From positions 953,345 through 1,017,344 of the forward strand of contig NZ_WUUT01000001.1 of assembly GCF_009831575.1 (NCBI RefSeq): DNA of 64,000 nucleotides, written 5' to 3'. A program made the translations under genes and the position numbers. This DNA is from Halovenus carboxidivorans (GTDB lineage Archaea > Halobacteriota > Halobacteria > Halobacteriales > Haloarculaceae). The notes beneath the pieces are model-generated. The model was not told the origin of the DNA. It saw nothing but the letters and a program-made list of their open reading frames with translations, and did no database searches. The first letter of the stretch is position 1. The number at the start of each line of letters is the position of its first letter. Below are positions 43,999 to 53,651 of the stretch, piece after piece.

Positions 43999-44475
43999 AT
44001 GAGCGATCAAGACGACCTGACACACGTCGAGGACGGCAACGCACAGATGGTCGACGTCGGTGACAAGGCCGACTCCAAGCGCCGAGCGGTCGCGGAGGGG
44101 CGGATCGACCTCCAGCCCTCGACGATCGACGCGATCCGGGCCGACGGTATCGAGAAAGGCGACGTGCTCGCGACGGCCCGCATCGGAGCCGTTCAGGCCG
44201 TAAAACACACGTGGGAAACGATCCCGATGTGTCACCAGATCCCGATCACGAACGTCGAGACGGACTTCACCGTCGACGAGGAGTCGGTCACGCTGACCGT
44301 CGCCGTCGAGACAGTCGGCAAGACCGGGTGCGAGATGGAGGCTCTGGAGGGAGTGACGACGGGGTTGAACGTGGTCTGGGACATGGTCAAAGCCGCCGAG
44401 AAAGACGACGACGGCGAGTATCCGGCGACCAGGATCGGCGACGTGGAAGTGATCGAGAAAAGCGTCGAGCGGTGA
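43999..44475 (+). CDS. moaC: Cyclic pyranopterin monophosphate synthase
   Basis: 158 aa, standard length. Signatures MVDVGDKADSKRRAVAEG, HTWETIPMCHQIPI and VGKTGCEMEALEGVT...NVVWDMVKAAEKDD include the catalytic Lys and Asp of MoaC. It makes cyclic pyranopterin monophosphate for molybdenum cofactor. It is followed by mobB-moaE and by the oppositely oriented molybdoenzyme operon, forming one Mo-enzyme locus. Confidence 0.97.
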   Translation: MSDQDDLTHVEDGNAQMVDVGDKADSKRRAVAEGRIDLQPSTIDAIRADGIEKGDVLATARIGAVQAVKHTWETIPMCHQIPITNVETDFTVDEESVTLTVAVETVGKTGCEMEALEGVTTGLNVVWDMVKAAEKDDDGEYPATRIGDVEVIEKSVER

Positions 44476-44524: not shown

Positions 44525-45358
44525 ATGCACGTCCTCTCGATTGTCGGCCACTCTGATACGGGAAAGACGACACTGACCGAGCGACTGACCGACCGCTTCT
44601 CCGATCGGGGCCGGGTCGGCACGGTCAAACACATCGACTGCGAGCCGACCCTCGACACCGAAGGTAAGGACACCGCCCGCCACCGCGCGGCCGGCGCGGT
44701 CCAGACCTACGGCATCGGTGACGACGAGTGGTTCGCGACCGGTGACACCTCGGAACTCGACCTGCACGAGGCGCTCGAACGACTGGGCGAACGCTGTGAC
44801 TACGCGCTGGTCGAGGGTTACTCCGACCTCGCGCTGCCGACCGTCGTCCTCGGGGAGTACGATGTCGACCGCGGCGAGGTACTGGCGCGGCCCTCTCACG
44901 GCGAGGAGGCGGACATCGAGGCAATCGTCGACGCGCTCGAAGCGACCGAACCGTACGAGACGCTCTCCTCGCTGGTCGCGAAGGTCAAACGATCACCCGA
45001 CGAGGTGTACAGCGGCGCAATCGCCACCTTCACCGGACGCGTGCGAGCCAAGGAAGGTCCCGACGACGAACGAACGGAGAAACTGGAGTTCGAGAAGTAC
45101 GACGAGGTGGCCGAACAGAAGATGGCCGAGATCCGCGAGGAGTTGGAGAAGCGCGACGGCGTCTACGAGGTGCGGATGCATCACAAAACAGGCGTCGTCG
45201 AGGCAGGCGAGGACATCGTCTTCGTCGTCGTCTTGGCGGGCCACCGCGGGGAGGCCTTCGAGACGGTCGAAGACGGAATCAACCGCCTCAAAGAGATCGT
45301 GCCGCTGTTCAAAAAAGAGGTGACCGTCGACGAGGAGTTCTGGGCCCACGAGCAGTAA
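44525..45358 (+). CDS. moaE: MobB-MoaE fusion (Moco guanylyl-adaptor/molybdopterin synthase large subunit)
   Basis: 277 aa. Residues 1-150 are a MobB GTPase with P-loop GHSDTGKTTL (8-17) and LVEGYSDL. Residues ~155-277 are MoaE, with GAIATFTGRVRAKEG, YEVRMHHKTGVVEAGE and VVVLAGHRGEAFE, ending PLFKKEVTVDEEFW. MoaE inserts dithiolene sulfur from a MoaD-like carrier (SAMP/MoaD); MobB aids MGD formation. The fusion is known in haloarchaea. Confidence 0.95.
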   Translation: MHVLSIVGHSDTGKTTLTERLTDRFSDRGRVGTVKHIDCEPTLDTEGKDTARHRAAGAVQTYGIGDDEWFATGDTSELDLHEALERLGERCDYALVEGYSDLALPTVVLGEYDVDRGEVLARPSHGEEADIEAIVDALEATEPYETLSSLVAKVKRSPDEVYSGAIATFTGRVRAKEGPDDERTEKLEFEKYDEVAEQKMAEIREELEKRDGVYEVRMHHKTGVVEAGEDIVFVVVLAGHRGEAFETVEDGINRLKEIVPLFKKEVTVDEEFWAHEQ

Positions 45359-45543: not shown

Positions 45544-46476
45544 TTACTCCGGCCCGGAGCGCTCGAACTCGTCGGGACCGAGACCGAACTCCTCGGGACC
45601 GGCCGGGACCTCTCCCCGCATCCCGTTGATGTGCTGGTCCATCTCGCCGTCGCCGCTGCCGCCACAGCCGCCGCAGCCACGGCCGGAGTCACCGAACAGG
45701 TCCTCGTTCCACTCGATGACCTCGGGGTCGTCCGGCACCCAGTCCGGATCGACATCCAGCCGGTCGATCTCCGTTTCGACCACTACGGCGAGCAGGTTCG
45801 CGACGGCGGCGTAGAAGCCGCCGTCCTGCTTGTTGACCTCTTCGGCGAACCGCCAGTACCACCGGCCGAGGTGCTCCTCGACGAAGGCCCGGCGTGCGCC
45901 GACGACGATTTCGATTCCCTCGTCGTCGCCGCGCCGCTTGAGTTCGGCCTCCCGGAGCGCGAGATCACTCAGGAACTCCGTCTGGAAGATGACGTGATCT
46001 TTCCTGTCGTTCTCGCCGTCCGCGATGGTGAGATCGAAGGCCTTGTAGAAGCCCGCGATGTCGGCCAGTTCGCGCGTCGCGGTCATCAGCGGTCCGGGCA
46101 GGTAGGTGAGTTCGTACGGCGAGACGGTGACGCCTTCCTCGATACCGAACAACGACCCCCACTGGCCGTATAGCTCGTCGCCCTCGGAGTCGGCGGCGAC
46201 GTCTGCGACCTGCTCGGCGGCCCGCGTGAGGTCCGGATCGTCGAGCCCTCCGGCGGCGTCGAGCAGTTCGGGACCGAACTCGTCGGCGCTGAGCATCGCC
46301 GTGAGCTGATCGCCGGGTCGGTCCAGCGCCAGCGAACACAGCGAGTACAGCCGCGCTCGGTCGACGGCGTTCTCGGGGGCGGCCTCGTAGGTCGGCACCC
46401 CGGTAAGCTCCGACTCCTCGCTCGCCTCTGGACCGGGCCGCTGCGTCGGCGTGCCGGATCCTAAGATGTTTCCCAT
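45544..46476 (-). CDS. TorD/NarJ-like molybdoenzyme chaperone
   Basis: 310 aa from ATG at 46476 (MGNILGSG); GAGGTG ~6 nt upstream selects this over the GTG at 46485. The central helical domain is TorD/DmsD-like (YSLCSLALDRPGDQL; LYGQWGSLFGIEEGVTVSPY; EYLGRWYWRF-like HLGRWYWRFAEEV). The C-terminal ~55 residues are unusual: GRGCGGCGGSGDGEMDQH, a possible metal-binding tail. It should load the cofactor and hold the Tat substrate of the catalytic subunit until folded. Last gene of the operon, 10 bp after the Fe-S subunit stop. Confidence 0.87.
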   Translation of the reverse strand: MGNILGSGTPTQRPGPEASEESELTGVPTYEAAPENAVDRARLYSLCSLALDRPGDQLTAMLSADEFGPELLDAAGGLDDPDLTRAAEQVADVAADSEGDELYGQWGSLFGIEEGVTVSPYELTYLPGPLMTATRELADIAGFYKAFDLTIADGENDRKDHVIFQTEFLSDLALREAELKRRGDDEGIEIVVGARRAFVEEHLGRWYWRFAEEVNKQDGGFYAAVANLLAVVVETEIDRLDVDPDWVPDDPEVIEWNEDLFGDSGRGCGGCGGSGDGEMDQHINGMRGEVPAGPEEFGLGPDEFERSGPE

Positions 46477-46486
46477 ATCTCTCACC

Positions 46487-47695
46487 TCACGTGATGTCGA
46501 GTCGGTAGACGTCCTCTTGTTCGTCGTAGCGCTTGCGGTCGGTCTGTGGCTCCTCGATCGGCACGCGGCCGACCTCGTCGCCCTCGTAGTAGCCGACGGC
46601 CTCGTCGCCCTCGATCTTGAAGCCGGTCAGCGACCACTCGGTGCTGCCCTGCAGGTGCAGCAGCGCCTGGATCTCCGGCTCCTCGCCGTTGCGGGCGGCC
46701 TGGTAGGTCTCGATGGCCTCCTCGACGCCCGGGCCGAACATCTGGGTCAGGTAATCGACCGGCGCCGTGATCGGCGGGATGTAGTAGATGTTCGGCTCGG
46801 TGCCGAACTGCGGGTACAGCGGCTTGGCCAGCCCTTTCTCGTGGACGAGGAAGTCGATGGGGTTGACAATCTCCTCGTTGGGGTCGCCCACGTCGGCGTC
46901 GTCCGGGTGGTTGATGTAGCCGTGCATCCGGATCTTGCCCAGGCAGTTCTCGAAGCACTGCGGGACCTTCCCCTCCTCGATCTTGGGGTAACAGCCGACA
47001 CACTTCTGGGAGACGCCCTCCTTGGGGTTGAGGATCGCCTTCTTGTACGGACAGGCTTCGTTACACTGCGTCGAGGCCTGACAGTTCTCCTGGTCGATGA
47101 GGACGATGCCGTCCTCCTGGCGCTTGTAGATGGCCTGGACCGGACACGACCCCGCACACGCCGCGTACGTGCAGTGGTTGCAGATCCGCGGCAGGTAGAA
47201 GAACCAGATCGGATGGGTGTCGTCGTCGAAGTGCATATCGCCGGTCATCTCCTCACCTGCGGGCTCGTCCTCTCCGAGGTTCGGGTACCGCCAGTCGTTA
47301 TCACCCGGCATGAACCCCGCGAGGTTGTCCGCGGAGCTGCTGAAGTTGTTGGTCGGATGGTTCTCCGGGTTCTCCCAGTCGGTCCCTTTGGCCTCGAAGA
47401 TCGTATCGCCCTGGTAGGTGCCGTCCTCGTCCCACTCGGCTTCGCCGAGTTCGTTCAGCAGACGGCCGTCCCAGCCGACGGGGTGGGAGCCGTAGGGTTT
47501 GGTCTCGACGTTGTTCCAGAACATGTGCTCCTGGCCCTCCCCGTGGGTCCAGGTGGTCTTACAGGCCAGGGTACAGGTCTGGCATTCGATACACTTGTTC
47601 AGGTCGAAGACGCCAGCCCACTGGTTGTCCGGCCGGGCGTCCTCGTAAGGATATTCCATCTCGCGGTTCAGGTGCCAGTTTTCGACTTTGGGCAT
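46487..47695 (-). CDS. Type II DMSO-reductase family Fe-S (beta) subunit
   Basis: 402 aa. Four ferredoxin-like Cys groups: C35/38/41/45 (CIECQTCTLAC), C172/175/180/184 (CNHCTYAACAGSC), C205/211/215 (CQASTQCNEAC) and C232/235/247/251 (CVGCYP...CFENC). The length and the LPRICNHCTYAACAGSCP region match beta subunits of nitrate, selenate, DMS and ethylbenzene enzymes. No signal peptide is seen, so it would be co-exported with the Tat-tagged alpha subunit. GAGGTGAC in the alpha 3' end is its ribosome-binding site, 6-7 nt before the ATG. Confidence 0.93.
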   Translation of the reverse strand: MPKVENWHLNREMEYPYEDARPDNQWAGVFDLNKCIECQTCTLACKTTWTHGEGQEHMFWNNVETKPYGSHPVGWDGRLLNELGEAEWDEDGTYQGDTIFEAKGTDWENPENHPTNNFSSSADNLAGFMPGDNDWRYPNLGEDEPAGEEMTGDMHFDDDTHPIWFFYLPRICNHCTYAACAGSCPVQAIYKRQEDGIVLIDQENCQASTQCNEACPYKKAILNPKEGVSQKCVGCYPKIEEGKVPQCFENCLGKIRMHGYINHPDDADVGDPNEEIVNPIDFLVHEKGLAKPLYPQFGTEPNIYYIPPITAPVDYLTQMFGPGVEEAIETYQAARNGEEPEIQALLHLQGSTEWSLTGFKIEGDEAVGYYEGDEVGRVPIEEPQTDRKRYDEQEDVYRLDIT

Positions 47696-47697
47696 TG

Positions 47698-50600
47698 TTA
47701 GTCACCTCGGGTGTTGATGTAGCCGCCGTCAATGTAGCGCAGCATGGCGTCGTTCTCGTAGCCCGGTCGCATGCTGAGGACGTCCGAGAAGTGGTCGTCG
47801 GGCCGCCAGCGGCCCTCGCCGTCCGCTGCGCCGTCTTCCGCCTTCTCGATTTTGACGAACGATTCCTTCGGCGCCCCGTTTGCGGCGTGAACGTCGGCCT
47901 CGAAGCCTTCGTCCAGGTTCTGTCCGAACTGATCTTTCCGGGGCATCGTGTCGGTCAGCCACGTACGGCGCAGCCACGTCGTCGTCATCGACTGGTGGCC
48001 GCCCTGGCGGTACAGCGAGACGTAGCCGGTCCGGTCGTTTTTGGCCCACTCGCTGTCGTCGTCCTGCTGGGCCTCGTAGGTGGTGTGGCTGGTCTGGTTG
48101 AGGTTCATCCAGCTACGCGTGACGCCGCGCGGAATTGAGGGCTGATGGCGCACCCGCATCATCGCGCGAGTGTAATGGTCCTCGTCGTCTTTCTCCGCGC
48201 CGGGGTACGGCCGGTCGCTCGGGTCCGCGTCGACCCACACGTAGTCGCCATCTTCGAAGCCTTCGTCACGGGCGTCCTGTGGGTTCATCTCGATGTAGCC
48301 CTCGCCGATGTACGGCTTGCGGTCATCCTCTGGATCCATGTCGCCGTAGTTACCCCACCAGACCGCGATGTTCGGCAGGGCGTTGGCGAAGGTGTGGGCG
48401 CCGTGGCGGTACTTCGGCGTCATGTAGATGTAATCGTAGCCGTCCTCGACGTCCATCAGCGGGTGGGTAGTATCCGTGAGTTCACTGGGTGAGTAGACGA
48501 CGTTGCGGACCTGTCGGTCGCTGGTGTCCCGCGCCACTGCGTCGCTGTCCCAGCCGCGGTCCTCCGGTGTGTCGGGATCGATCACCGGGCTATCGCTGTT
48601 GTCGACGAGGACGTTCGGTTCATACGGGGTCGCGTCCATCGGCTCCCGGTGCAGCGGAAGATTCTCGCCCGCCTCGGCGAACTCCTGCTCTTCGCGGAAG
48701 AACTCCAGGCGCCCGGTTTTGGTGTACCACGGTCGGTCGTCCTGAGTCTGCTCGTTGCCGATGTGTTTCGGATACGTCTGTGTCATCGTCATGCCGGGCG
48801 TGCCCTCGCGGGCTTTCTCCAGCAGATCCTCAATATCGTACCCTTTGACGCTGTTCGAGTTGTCGATGATCCGCTGGATGTACGGTTTGGCCCGGTACTC
48901 GTCTTCGTCGATGAACGCCCAGTAGTCCTCGAAGCGGCTGTCGCCGGTGATTTCGGCGAGCTTCTGGGCGACACCCTTGTAGTGTTGGGTGTCGTTGCGG
49001 GTGTTGTAGATCCGGCTATCCAGTTCCGTCTCCGGCATCACGTTGACGAAGGGGTTCGTCGGTGAGGCCGTGATGTCGTGGACGTGGTTCTCAGCCCAGG
49101 AGTCGACGGGGAAGACGATGTCGGAGTACTCACACGTCATCGTCCACCACCACTCGTTGCAGAAGAACGCTTCTATTTTACCTTCACGGAGCGCCTTCTC
49201 GATGATCTTGTAGGCACCTTTCGCGTTCCCGAGAATCGAGTTCGACCCTGACACCCAGATCGACTTCGTCGGCGTGTGCATGTGACTGTCGCCCTGGAAG
49301 TACTCGCCGTCGACTTTCAGCGGCTTGTCCAGGTTGGTATAGAAGTGTGCCGACTGCATGTCGTAGCGCCGGTCGACGTCGACGTGGGATTCTGGATCGA
49401 GTTCGATGTTGAAGGGATTCTCCTGGATGTACTGCGGGAGGCCGTTGAACAGCGCTGCCCGGTAATTGCCGGAGTAGCTGCCAACGTTGCCGGACTGGTA
49501 ACCGACGTTTCTGGTCAGACTGGCGAGTAGGAAGATCGCCCGGTCCTTGTTGTCGGAGTTGGCGTGGTGGTTCGGCCCCATCCCGGTGAGGATCAGCGTC
49601 TCCTGCTTGTTGGCCGCGATGTCCTCGGCGAGGTTGACGACCGACTGCGGATCGGAGCCGGTGACCTCCGCCGTCGACTCGGGATCCCAGGTCTCGTCGA
49701 GGTGTTCTTTGATGAGGTCGAAGACGGGCCGGACCTCGACGGTCTCGCCGCTGGCGAGTTCGACCTCGAAACTGCCTTCGAGGGTGGCAGTCACGTCGAA
49801 GTCGTCGCCGACGTCGTCGCGGCTGATCGCCTCGAACTCGCCGGTCTCGTCGTTGCGGACGACAAAGTCACCCCACTCGCGACGGTGCTCTTCGGTGATG
49901 ATCTGCGTGTCAAGATCCGTCACGTCCGCGCCGGGGCGCTGTTCGTCGCTTTCGACAGTGTCGGTCTTCGCAAGATCTTCGTGTTCGTAGTTCTCGAAGA
50001 GGTCGCTGGCCCGCAGGAACTTCTTGTCGTCGACCCGGACGAGCAGCGGGAGGTCCGTGTGTTTCTGGACGTACTCCTCGTCGTAGAGTTCGCGGTCGAT
50101 GACCTCCCGAGCAGCCCCGAGAAAGAGCGCGCCGTCGGTCGCCGGCCGGACGTTGATGAACTCGTCACATTTCGTCGACGTGGCGTTGTAGTCAGTATAG
50201 ATCCCGGTGATCTTCGAGCCTTTCAGACGGGCCTCGGTCAGCCAGTGCGAGTCCGCCATCTTCGTACAGATCCAGTTGAGACCCGCGAGCACGATGTGAT
50301 CGGCGTAGTCGGCGTTGATCAGGTCGAAGTCGACGGTCTGCTGGCCGGTGACCATCGTGTGGCCCGGCGGCAGGTCGGTGTGGAACGAGTAGTTATCGAG
50401 GCCGACTGCGCCGAGGGCCTCATCCTCGCTCACGTCTCGGACGTGGTTATCCAAAAGCGCCATCGAGTTGGCGTTGCGGTACTGGCCGAACAGTTTCGTC
50501 ACACCAAGCAGGGGCATGCCGCCGCGGAACTTCATCGTCCGGACGCCGGCGCCCTGGGTCTCCTCGACGACGCGTTCGTCGTAGTCCTGTTCGAGGAGAC

Positions 50601-51270
50601 TCTGCATCCCCGACTCGCCGCTGTAGTGTTCGGCGAGTTCGGCGAAGGTCCGCGCGGCGAGGTCGTAGGCCGTATCGAAATCGACTTCGACCCAGTCGTC
50701 GTCGCCGCGGTTGGCGTACTCCTGGGGCATCGATCCGTCGTCGTCGCGGGGGAAGCCCTCTTCGACCCACTGTTTGAACCCTTTGCGGACCATGGGCTGT
50801 TTGACCCGCCGTTCGCCGTAGAACCGTTCGATCATGGCCAGCCCCTTCTGACAGACCCGTGGGTCCCAGCGGTCCGAGACCTGATTGCCGTAGAGGTCCT
50901 CGGCCTCGCCGTAGTTCATCGACGGGCCGAGACGGGTGACTTCCCCGTTTTTCACGTTGGCCTGCAGATAACAGTTGTGCGTGTCGTTGGGTGTGCAGGT
51001 CAACATGAACTTGTTGTCGACCTCGTAGTGGTTCCGATACAGCGACTCCCAGTCGCGGTTGGGGTGTTCTGCGAGCGGGTTCCGGACGTCCGCGAGGGGG
51101 TCGCCTTCGTCGCCGCCGTCGGAACTCGACCCGCCACCCTCGTCCTCACGGGAGAAGCGCCGATAGCCGAGGTAACCCAACCCGACGGAGGTCGCAGTAC
51201 TCGCCGCACCGCCGAGGATCTCACGTCTGGAGAACGGAAGCACACCGTCGTCTCCCTCACTATCAGACAT
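47698..51270 (-). CDS. Type II DMSO-reductase family molybdopterin catalytic (alpha) subunit
   Basis: 1190 aa from ATG at 51270; GGAGGTG ending 10 nt upstream selects this over the ATG at 51288. Tat signal FSRREILGG (13-21) and an acidic linker. The FS0 motif is C92-x3-D96-x3-C100...C140: the first two positions differ from the H/C and C of the family. The Mo-ligand Asp is D299 in HTDLPPGHT. HTDLPLLVRVDD and the C-terminal MRVRHQPSIPRGVT fit the nitrate/selenate/DMS/ethylbenzene branch. Substrate unknown. No cytochrome or membrane subunit lies nearby. Confidence 0.92.
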   Translation of the reverse strand: MSDSEGDDGVLPFSRREILGGAASTATSVGLGYLGYRRFSREDEGGGSSSDGGDEGDPLADVRNPLAEHPNRDWESLYRNHYEVDNKFMLTCTPNDTHNCYLQANVKNGEVTRLGPSMNYGEAEDLYGNQVSDRWDPRVCQKGLAMIERFYGERRVKQPMVRKGFKQWVEEGFPRDDDGSMPQEYANRGDDDWVEVDFDTAYDLAARTFAELAEHYSGESGMQSLLEQDYDERVVEETQGAGVRTMKFRGGMPLLGVTKLFGQYRNANSMALLDNHVRDVSEDEALGAVGLDNYSFHTDLPPGHTMVTGQQTVDFDLINADYADHIVLAGLNWICTKMADSHWLTEARLKGSKITGIYTDYNATSTKCDEFINVRPATDGALFLGAAREVIDRELYDEEYVQKHTDLPLLVRVDDKKFLRASDLFENYEHEDLAKTDTVESDEQRPGADVTDLDTQIITEEHRREWGDFVVRNDETGEFEAISRDDVGDDFDVTATLEGSFEVELASGETVEVRPVFDLIKEHLDETWDPESTAEVTGSDPQSVVNLAEDIAANKQETLILTGMGPNHHANSDNKDRAIFLLASLTRNVGYQSGNVGSYSGNYRAALFNGLPQYIQENPFNIELDPESHVDVDRRYDMQSAHFYTNLDKPLKVDGEYFQGDSHMHTPTKSIWVSGSNSILGNAKGAYKIIEKALREGKIEAFFCNEWWWTMTCEYSDIVFPVDSWAENHVHDITASPTNPFVNVMPETELDSRIYNTRNDTQHYKGVAQKLAEITGDSRFEDYWAFIDEDEYRAKPYIQRIIDNSNSVKGYDIEDLLEKAREGTPGMTMTQTYPKHIGNEQTQDDRPWYTKTGRLEFFREEQEFAEAGENLPLHREPMDATPYEPNVLVDNSDSPVIDPDTPEDRGWDSDAVARDTSDRQVRNVVYSPSELTDTTHPLMDVEDGYDYIYMTPKYRHGAHTFANALPNIAVWWGNYGDMDPEDDRKPYIGEGYIEMNPQDARDEGFEDGDYVWVDADPSDRPYPGAEKDDEDHYTRAMMRVRHQPSIPRGVTRSWMNLNQTSHTTYEAQQDDDSEWAKNDRTGYVSLYRQGGHQSMTTTWLRRTWLTDTMPRKDQFGQNLDEGFEADVHAANGAPKESFVKIEKAEDGAADGEGRWRPDDHFSDVLSMRPGYENDAMLRYIDGGYINTRGD

Positions 51271-51334
51271 AGAGATACCACCTCCCATCGGCCGAACTGC
51301 TGTACTCGATCCGGGGTGCCTGTTCGGTAGTCAT
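51263..51334 (-). CDS. 23-codon leader ORF overlapping the molybdoenzyme alpha start
   Basis: ATG at 51334 to TGA at 51263-51265; the peptide starts MTTEQAPRIEY and ends GRWYLYV. The stop lies inside the first codons of the alpha gene, and the alpha ribosome-binding site GGAGGTG lies within this ORF. A TATA-like CATATAG (51362-51369) ~30 bp upstream would make it leaderless. So ribosomes entering here would have to finish before the alpha start is used. It may be a coupled leader or a small protein. Confidence 0.45.
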   Translation of the reverse strand: MTTEQAPRIEYSSSADGRWYLYV

Positions 51335-51547: not shown

Positions 51548-51979
51548 CTACTCCCCGGAAACGTCGACAGTCAGCACCGGTACCGGCGATTGCGTGACGA
51601 CCTTCTGGGACGTACTGCCGAGGATGTTCTCGGTGTAGTCGTCGCCCTGCGTGCCCATCGTGATCACATCTATGCCCGCCGTCTCGGCGTAGTCGACGAT
51701 CTCCTCGGCCGGCCGCCCCCGCCGAATCGAGGTGACAGTCTCCAGTCCCGCGGTCTCGGTCTCCTCGGTGACGGCGTCCAGCGCCTGTTCGCCCTCCGCC
51801 TGCATCTCCGCCAGCACCTCGTCTTTCATCTCGTCGTCCAGTGTCAGAAAGGCCTGATCGTCGATGACGTACAGGACGTGTACCGTCGCGTCCCGTCTCG
51901 TCGCGATGTCCGTGGTGTGATCGAGGACCGACATCACCGAGTCGCTCCCGTCCGTCGGCACGAGAATATCGTCGTACAT
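51548..51979 (-). CDS. UspA-family universal stress protein
   Basis: 143 aa single Usp domain: MYDDILVPTDGSDSVMSVL at the start and the ATP-binding GTQGDDYTENILGSTSQKV (G-x2-G-x9-G(S/T)-like) near 110-130. It lies upstream of the molybdoenzyme operon on the same strand, with the 21-bp repeat array in between, so it is probably a separate unit. Divergent from the next UspA gene. Confidence 0.92.
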   Translation of the reverse strand: MYDDILVPTDGSDSVMSVLDHTTDIATRRDATVHVLYVIDDQAFLTLDDEMKDEVLAEMQAEGEQALDAVTEETETAGLETVTSIRRGRPAEEIVDYAETAGIDVITMGTQGDDYTENILGSTSQKVVTQSPVPVLTVDVSGE

Positions 51980-52098
51980 ACGTGTCGGTACCTCCGGTGG
52001 CTACACACGCCTTTCGGTTTGCGACGGCCAGCGCGGTCGATCCCGGTGGAGTGGGAACGCGCGCAGCCGCTTTTGCCGTTGCCCGTCGACGATCCAGT

Positions 52099-52716
52099 AT
52101 GTACGAGCGTATCCTCCACCCGACCGACGGGAGCACCGGAACGGCACACGTCACGCTCCAGGCGATCGATCTCGCGAAACAGTACGACGCCACGGTCTAC
52201 GCGCTACACGTCGTCGATTCAGATGTCACCTCGCTGCTGACGGACGTCGGACGTGACCGTGCCGCCCTCGACGAACGAGGGCAGAAGGCGGTCCGGAGCG
52301 TCGAACGGATGTGTGATGCGCACGGCGTCGACGCCGAGACAGCGGTACTCGACGGCGACCCCGCGGAGACGATTCTGGAGTACGCCGACGAGATCGAGGC
52401 TGATCTCATCGTCTCCGGAACGCACGGCCGGTCGGGCGTCAGACGGCAGGTGCTCGGCAGTGTGGCCGAGCGACTCGTCCGCCACGCCACGGTCCCGGTC
52501 ATGACCGTGCGACTCCCCGAGACCGACGTGACCGTCGAGGACGGCGAGCACGCGGAGTCCCTCGCCCGCGAGGCGCTCGCGGACGCCGGATACGACGCCG
52601 AGATCACCGACGTGACCCGCCAACTGACCGTGTGGGTGATCCACGCCCGGGCCGACGGCCGAGAGCTTCTCGTCTACCTCGATCCGGAGACCCAGCGGAC
52701 CAGCGTCATCGACTGA
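52099..52716 (+). CDS. UspA-family protein with C-terminal extension
   Basis: 205 aa from ATG at 52099. Usp domain 1-140 (MYERILHPTDGSTGTAHVTL; GTHGRSGVRRQVLGSVAERL) followed by ~60 residues (YDAEITDVTRQLTVWVIHAR...YLDPETQRTSVID) of a small extra domain. The nucleotide-binding glycines are intact, so it is an ATP-binding type. Confidence 0.92.
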   Translation: MYERILHPTDGSTGTAHVTLQAIDLAKQYDATVYALHVVDSDVTSLLTDVGRDRAALDERGQKAVRSVERMCDAHGVDAETAVLDGDPAETILEYADEIEADLIVSGTHGRSGVRRQVLGSVAERLVRHATVPVMTVRLPETDVTVEDGEHAESLAREALADAGYDAEITDVTRQLTVWVIHARADGRELLVYLDPETQRTSVID

Positions 52717-52793
52717 GCCGTCCCGACGCCCGGACCTCGGTCTGCTGGGAATCACCCCACCCACTCTTGTCCGGTGCTCGCGTACCGAGCGGT

Positions 52794-53651
52794 ATGAGCA
52801 TTCTCGTCGCCTACGATGGCTCGGACCAGTCGGAGTACGCCCTACAGACGGCGGTCGACTCGTTTCCCGACCAGCCACTGTTGCTCGTGTACGTCGTCAA
52901 ACCCGTCGGCAACTACACCGATGCGGCCGGCTACACTCGGGCACAGTACCGCCAGGAGTTCGACCGCGCGGAGTCGATGCTGGAGACGGCAAGCGAGTCG
53001 ATCCCGGCGGATCGCCCGGTCGAACACGTCGTCCGCCACGGTCGGCCGGCCCACGAGATACTGCGCGTCGCTGCCGACCGCGGGGTCGACCACGTCGTCG
53101 TCGGCAGTCGCGGCCGGGACGGAGCGAAACGTCTCCTGCTCGGCAGCGTGGCGGAGGCGGTCGCCAGGCGGGCGTCAGTGCCGGTCACCGTCGTCCGTCA
53201 CCCTCCCGCGGGTGGCAGTCCGGAGCGCGTGCTCGTGCCGTTCGACGGCTCGGACCCCGCGACGGCGGCGCTGGAGTACGCTCTCGGTCAGTATCCCGAC
53301 GCCGAGATCACGGTCGTCTACGCGGTGTATCCGCCGCCGGAAGTGACCGGAGCCGACGACGACCCCGTCTCCGGGTCGCTCGAAAACTGGGTCGACCGGC
53401 TCGACGAACACACGACCGATCTGCTCGAACAGGCAGAGAGCCGGGCGGCCCGCCCGATCGATGTCGAAACGGTCAGCGGCGATCCCGCGCCCGCGATCGT
53501 CGACTACGCCGAGACGGCCGCGGTCGATCACATCGTGATCGGCAGTCACGGCCGCGACGGTCTCTCCCGGCTCATCATGGGTAGCGTGGCGGAGACCGTC
53601 GTCCGTCGAGCACCGACATCGGTGACCGTCGTGAGAGAGTCGGACGACTAA
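52794..53651 (+). CDS. Tandem UspA-domain protein
   Basis: 285 aa from ATG at 52794. Two Usp domains (1-140 and 145-285), each with an intact G-rich loop: GSRGRDGAKRLLLGSVAEAV and GSHGRDGLSRLIMGSVAETV. The second begins ERVLVPFDGSDPATAALEYA. Tandem proteins form intramolecular Usp dimers. It lies 77 bp after the previous Usp gene on the same strand, so the three Usp genes make a stress cluster. Confidence 0.93.
   Translation: MSILVAYDGSDQSEYALQTAVDSFPDQPLLLVYVVKPVGNYTDAAGYTRAQYRQEFDRAESMLETASESIPADRPVEHVVRHGRPAHEILRVAADRGVDHVVVGSRGRDGAKRLLLGSVAEAVARRASVPVTVVRHPPAGGSPERVLVPFDGSDPATAALEYALGQYPDAEITVVYAVYPPPEVTGADDDPVSGSLENWVDRLDEHTTDLLEQAESRAARPIDVETVSGDPAPAIVDYAETAAVDHIVIGSHGRDGLSRLIMGSVAETVVRRAPTSVTVVRESDD

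Follow-up and report, generated by a model that had tools for sequence, protein, structure and literature searches.

A 64,000-nucleotide stretch of Halovenus carboxidivorans DNA (hereafter the window) carries an operon that, judged from its sequence, encodes an enzyme of the periplasmic NXR/NAR lineage, a haloarchaeal sister of the nitrite oxidoreductase (NXR) of Kuenenia, and its membership of this clade is shown here. We consider it likely that the product is an exported alpha-beta molybdoenzyme with D102 at its FS0 cluster, which acts as an extracellular nitrate reductase. Haloarchaea that do not possess the usual nitrate reductase probably use this one in its place.

Operon organization

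The NxrA/NarG-type alpha subunit of 1196 aa is encoded on the minus strand at 47698..51288, counted from the first ATG at 51288. The first-pass annotation of the locus began at an in-frame ATG at 51270, six codons later, and its residue numbers are therefore six lower than those used here. A Tat signal, SRREIL, is found at alpha residues 20-25; R21 and R22 are invariant in one alignment (A1), and the motif [ST]RR is present in 37 of the 38 aligned haloarchaeal alpha sequences.

The alpha gene is followed on the same strand by the gene of the NxrB/NarH-type beta subunit (46487..47695, 402 aa) and then by that of a TorD/NarJ-type assembly chaperone (45544..46485), which scores 54 bits against PF02613 and 68.7 bits, below the cut-off, against TIGR03482. 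The beta subunit contains the Cys motifs for FS1-FS4 and is of the NXR-B type with four Fe-S clusters: its best PDB match is the beta subunit of Kuenenia NXR (7b04_A, KsNXR-B; 332 bits), compared with 196 bits for PcrB and 163 for NarH, and its score against TIGR03478 is below the cut-off.

Two genes of molybdenum cofactor synthesis lie nearby on the plus strand, a convergently oriented MobB-MoaE fusion (44525..45358) and MoaC (43999..44475); both are linked to the operon by association only. Just upstream of the operon is a gene for a UspA-type universal stress protein, adjoined by two more Usp-like open reading frames (ORFs; window positions 51548-53651). In one relative (L003, 7298-8647), an Mrp/NUBPL-type P-loop NTPase is encoded directly upstream of alpha, and several others have an ORF of comparable size (about 400-450 aa) in this place; the one in the Natronococcus occultus record is annotated as a P-loop NTPase. 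No P-loop NTPase-type ORF of this sort adjoins the alpha copy of the window.

Predicted ligands of the FS0 cluster

Counted from the ATG at 51288, the FS0 column of the alpha subunit reads C98-T-P-N-D102-T-H104-N-C106 ... C146. The first-pass annotation had described it as C92-x3-D96-x3-C100...C140, with an Asp at the site of the second Cys, and this is confirmed by alignment to the NarG proteins of E. coli, Thermus and two haloarchaea (H-x3-C-x3-C...C), in which Cys98 falls in the His column. Asp102 stands in the second-Cys column.

In the crystal structure of Kuenenia NXR, published in 2021, the ligands of FS0 are three Cys and Asp71 (PMC8387239), and the residues of the window enzyme match this set one to one. 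Cys98 (50995..50997, minus strand, as are all residues given here; C92 in the first-pass numbering), which stands in the His column of NarG and EbdA, aligns with KsNXR-A Cys67, Asp102 (50983..50985, codon GAC; D96) with Asp71, Cys106 (50971..50973; C100) with Cys75, and Cys146 (50851..50853; C140) with Cys115. All four are predicted FS0 ligands, and FS0 would be a [4Fe-4S] cluster with C98, C106 and C146 as ligands and D102 as the fourth. Asn101 (50986..50988), the putative substrate-binding Asn opposite the Mo, aligns with KsNXR-A Asn70 (PMC8387239). The predicted Mo ligand, Asp305 (50374..50376; D299 in HTDLPPGHT), aligns with KsNXR-A Asp275 and with the Mo-ligand Asp of E. coli NarG, in agreement with the earlier statement that this Asp and the type II architecture are kept.

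The haloarchaeal alignment comprises 38 sequences, drawn from genome_contigs and from 391 Halobacteria genomes. The FS0 region is present in 37, each of which has C, N, D, H, C and C at its six key residues, and is missing from one only, a broken plasmid copy from N. occultus. The window genome encodes a second alpha copy, 66-67% identical, with the same four FS0 residues. Because these residues are invariant across the alignment, are repeated in the second copy and match KsNXR-A, chance or error at Asp102 is excluded; a sequencing error or a mutation of this strain, in favour of which nothing was found, is of negligible probability and already refuted by conservation. The N. occultus copy, on plasmid 2 (L057:10001-13389), is interrupted by a change of frame immediately past the FS0 region and has no gene in the PLSDB table; either the copy is broken or the sequence contains an error.

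The first-pass annotation had left the choice between an Asp- and a His-ligated cluster, and of the two only the Asp, homologous to the Asp71 ligand of KsNXR, has stood. The nearby His (H98 there, H104 here) is invariant in the clade, as would be expected if FS0 were His-ligated. However, KsNXR-A also has a His two residues after its Asp, which is not a ligand in the crystal (PMC8387239), and the three Cys and the Asp are just as invariant in the clade. This His was therefore rejected as an FS0 ligand, and a cluster that is His-ligated or lost, with the Asp as a non-ligand, is very improbable. No structural claim rests on the AlphaFold2 model computed with 12 close haloarchaeal sequences, the mean pLDDT of which was 31.

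The 3Cys/1Asp ligand set is itself already known from the crystal structure and is thus not uncharacterised. In the NXR and NAR lineages, each lineage has either 3Cys/1Asp or 3Cys/1His (PMC8387239). Redox tuning by the FS0 ligands is discussed by the authors of the same study, and the shift in redox potential that had been suggested for Asp ligation is plausible for the haloarchaeal enzyme.

Relationship to Kuenenia NXR and to other type II enzymes

The best PDB match of the alpha subunit is Kuenenia NXR-A (7b04_B), with 722 bits over residues 64-1191; PcrA reaches 179 bits, EbdA 116 and NarG about 100. The score against TIGR01580 (respiratory NarG) is 131 bits, with a cut-off of 1084, and the HxxxCxxxC ligands of that family are not found; against TIGR03479, which covers PcrA, SerA, ClrA, DdhA and EbdA, it is 292 bits, with a cut-off of 985. 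In the tree, a branch supported at 100/99.9 separates the haloarchaeal clade and KsNXR-A from the remaining sequences, NarG and PcrA among them; the sample holds a single bacterial NXR on a long branch, and the program warns of long branches meeting there. Grouping of the haloarchaeal clade with the all-Cys haloarchaeal enzymes described below was rejected (p-AU 0.0004). The earlier proposal that the Asp marks a distinct clade is thus borne out by 37 of 37 relatives and by a tree in which they stand apart from NarG and from PcrA (entered as a partial sequence of matched parts), SerA, ClrA and DdhA lying outside the tree's sample. The accompanying idea of an uncharacterised substrate branch does not hold, since the 3Cys/1Asp FS0 is known (PMC8387239) and the branch is the periplasmic NXR/NAR lineage, for which nitrate and nitrite are the expected substrate pair. 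This lineage has a Nitrospira/anammox side and a Nitrotoga/Hydrogenobacter side (PMC6050957).

Kuenenia NXR-AB (7b04; PMC8387239) and the window enzyme share the FS0 pattern C-x3-D-x3-C...C, the substrate Asn, the Mo-ligand Asp and the same clade, and alpha (37.8% identity over 901 columns) and beta can both be aligned over their full length. They differ in that the window enzyme belongs to a haloarchaeal host, is predicted to be Tat-exported and has no linked or detected EB_dh gamma subunit, and in that the haloarchaeal enzyme has T/S in place of N312 and M in place of E527. The second-sphere residues are mixed, T342 being NarG-like, K959 KsNXR-like and M570 like neither, so the direction of catalysis cannot be read from them.

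The canonical haloarchaeal NarGH (Haloferax, Halomicrobium; PMC8301774) is likewise an exported alpha-beta type II Mo-enzyme with a TorD chaperone, but its NarG has an H-x3-C-x3-C FS0, is about 980-1090 aa long and is only 25-27% identical to the window alpha, and its operon includes Rieske/cytochrome b and EB_dh genes. PcrAB (4ydd) and ethylbenzene dehydrogenase (2ivf) share the type II architecture and the Mo-ligand Asp; they differ in their 3Cys/1His FS0 (H-x3-C-x3-C in PcrA) and in their far weaker match to alpha.

Membership of the SerA/ClrA/PcrA/DdhA/EbdA group was rejected on the TIGR03479 score and the tree. The main substrate might nevertheless be another oxyanion (chlorate, perchlorate or selenate) or an organic compound, as in these enzymes, which like the window enzyme are members of the type II superfamily. 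Promiscuity is a feature of haloarchaeal NarG and of PcrA (PMC8301774), and the two paralogues of the window genome could differ in substrate. Given an FS0 set unlike those of PcrA and EbdA, the low family score and the distance from PcrA in the sampled tree, such a substrate is unlikely.

Distribution and genome context

The enzyme was found in 32 of 391 Halobacteria genomes, the window's own included; no relatives turned up when viral contigs were scanned. Canonical haloarchaeal NarG was detected in none of the 32 carriers (NarG query, E 1e-120), while the same query recovered NarG from 16 of 50 genomes taken for comparison (Fisher p 1.3e-4, a contrast that is partly taxonomic). Within the carrier-rich family (f3), the corresponding numbers are 0 of 29 carriers and 4 of 35 other genomes, which is not significant (p 0.12).

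Denitrification genes are frequent among the 32 carriers: NirK occurs in 24, NorB in 22 and NosZ in 19, with at least one of them in 29 and all three in nine. NirK was found in 186 of the 359 other genomes (p 0.015). In two carriers (G131 and G247), the matches to alpha and NorB start about 8 kb apart, and in Natronococcus amylolyticus genes for NorB and a ScdA/Ric-type protein lie close downstream of the operon; the annotated neighbourhood of the N. occultus plasmid locus is comparable. The NorB-like proteins near the operon in N. amylolyticus (L014:15424-18693), G131 and G247 have about 1080-1120 aa and are considerably extended at the N terminus; the ordinary NorB-like proteins of other carriers have about 780 aa.

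NorB and an assimilatory NasA are encoded in the window genome, in which no NirK, NosZ or canonical NarG was found. Without NirK and NosZ, the organism is no complete denitrifier, and its physiology may stop at nitrite. An EB_dh-type haem b gamma subunit (PF09459) is also absent from this genome; the same search was positive in the control, Haloferax volcanii.

Nitrate reduction or nitrite oxidation

The proximity of NorB and the presence of NirK, NorB or NosZ in most carriers favour nitrate reduction in a denitrification setting. The absence of NirK, NosZ and an EB_dh-type subunit from the window genome, the mixed second-sphere residues and the non-significant contrast within f3 count against this reading. 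Under it, the folded alpha-beta complex would leave the cell via the Tat route on the signal of alpha and would reduce nitrate to nitrite outside the membrane. Electrons would enter via the four clusters of beta and pass through FS0 to an Asp-bound Mo-bis-MGD, in a reaction that is probably reversible, as in Kuenenia NXR.

The opposite direction, in which haloarchaea would oxidise nitrite to nitrate within their own metabolism, as a source of electrons or for the removal of nitrite, appears improbable. The closest solved relative is a nitrite oxidoreductase with identical FS0 ligands, the window enzyme carries a Tat export signal, its genome has no NirK, and this part of the family may include nitrite-oxidising archaea (PMC6050957). 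On the other hand, most carriers have denitrification genes and several have alpha near NorB, the active-site residues N312 and E527 of KsNXR are not kept, no gamma haem subunit was found in the window genome, and relatives within the lineage, such as the NAR of Hydrogenobacter, reduce nitrate (PMC6050957). That Natrialbaceae-type haloarchaea and the window organism run the enzyme oxidatively, and are thus nitrite-oxidising archaea, is likewise improbable.

Nitrate reduction, the preferred reading, also touches on two earlier reports. In a survey of haloarchaeal NarG proteins (2021), all had HxxxCxxxC except those of Halobiforma haloterrestris and Halopiger aswanensis, which were called NarG without explanation (PMC8301774). 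H. haloterrestris encodes a member of the present clade (L007) and has no canonical NarG (G320); very likely, therefore, this member is the reported exception, which would tie the unexplained 'NarG' to a known ligand set. Furthermore, nitrate-respiring haloarchaea without canonical NarGH exist, among them Natrinema versiforme, N. altunense and Haloterrigena saccharevitans, and the NarG of Natrialbaceae is longer (PMC8400030); for such organisms the enzyme is a candidate nitrate reductase. In a literature search of open-licence papers, no assignment of haloarchaeal proteins to the Asp-ligated lineage of the NXR type was encountered. The predicted NXR-type Asp-ligated FS0 is hereby extended to an archaeal group with cultured species, and culturable haloarchaea would allow a comparison of how Asp, His and Cys as ligands affect cluster potential and catalytic direction.

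Other ligand variants

According to earlier work, every type II enzyme keeps the 3Cys/1His pattern (PMC8301774, PMC8840923), a generalisation that fails for two haloarchaeal clades, the Asp-type described above and an all-Cys type. The latter (Halobaculum magnesiiphilum WP_222609407, L064-L069) forms the next branch of the tree at about 35% identity and also has Cys in the His column; it differs in that the second position is Cys, not Asp (CHPNCTQSC), and in having a linked EB_dh subunit and halocyanin. All seven sequences of this clade (L058:9905-13099 and L064-L069) have Cys at the four FS0 positions, and in the H. magnesiiphilum operon the EB_dh subunit occurs with halocyanin, a formate/nitrite transporter being encoded nearby. 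A further variant is found on a plasmid of Alisedimentitalea scapharcae (L060:4899-7445), where a type II alpha gene directly follows a gene of the chlorite dismutase family; its product, possibly a chlorate reductase, carries an Asn (NMPNCTGSC) in the His column of FS0.
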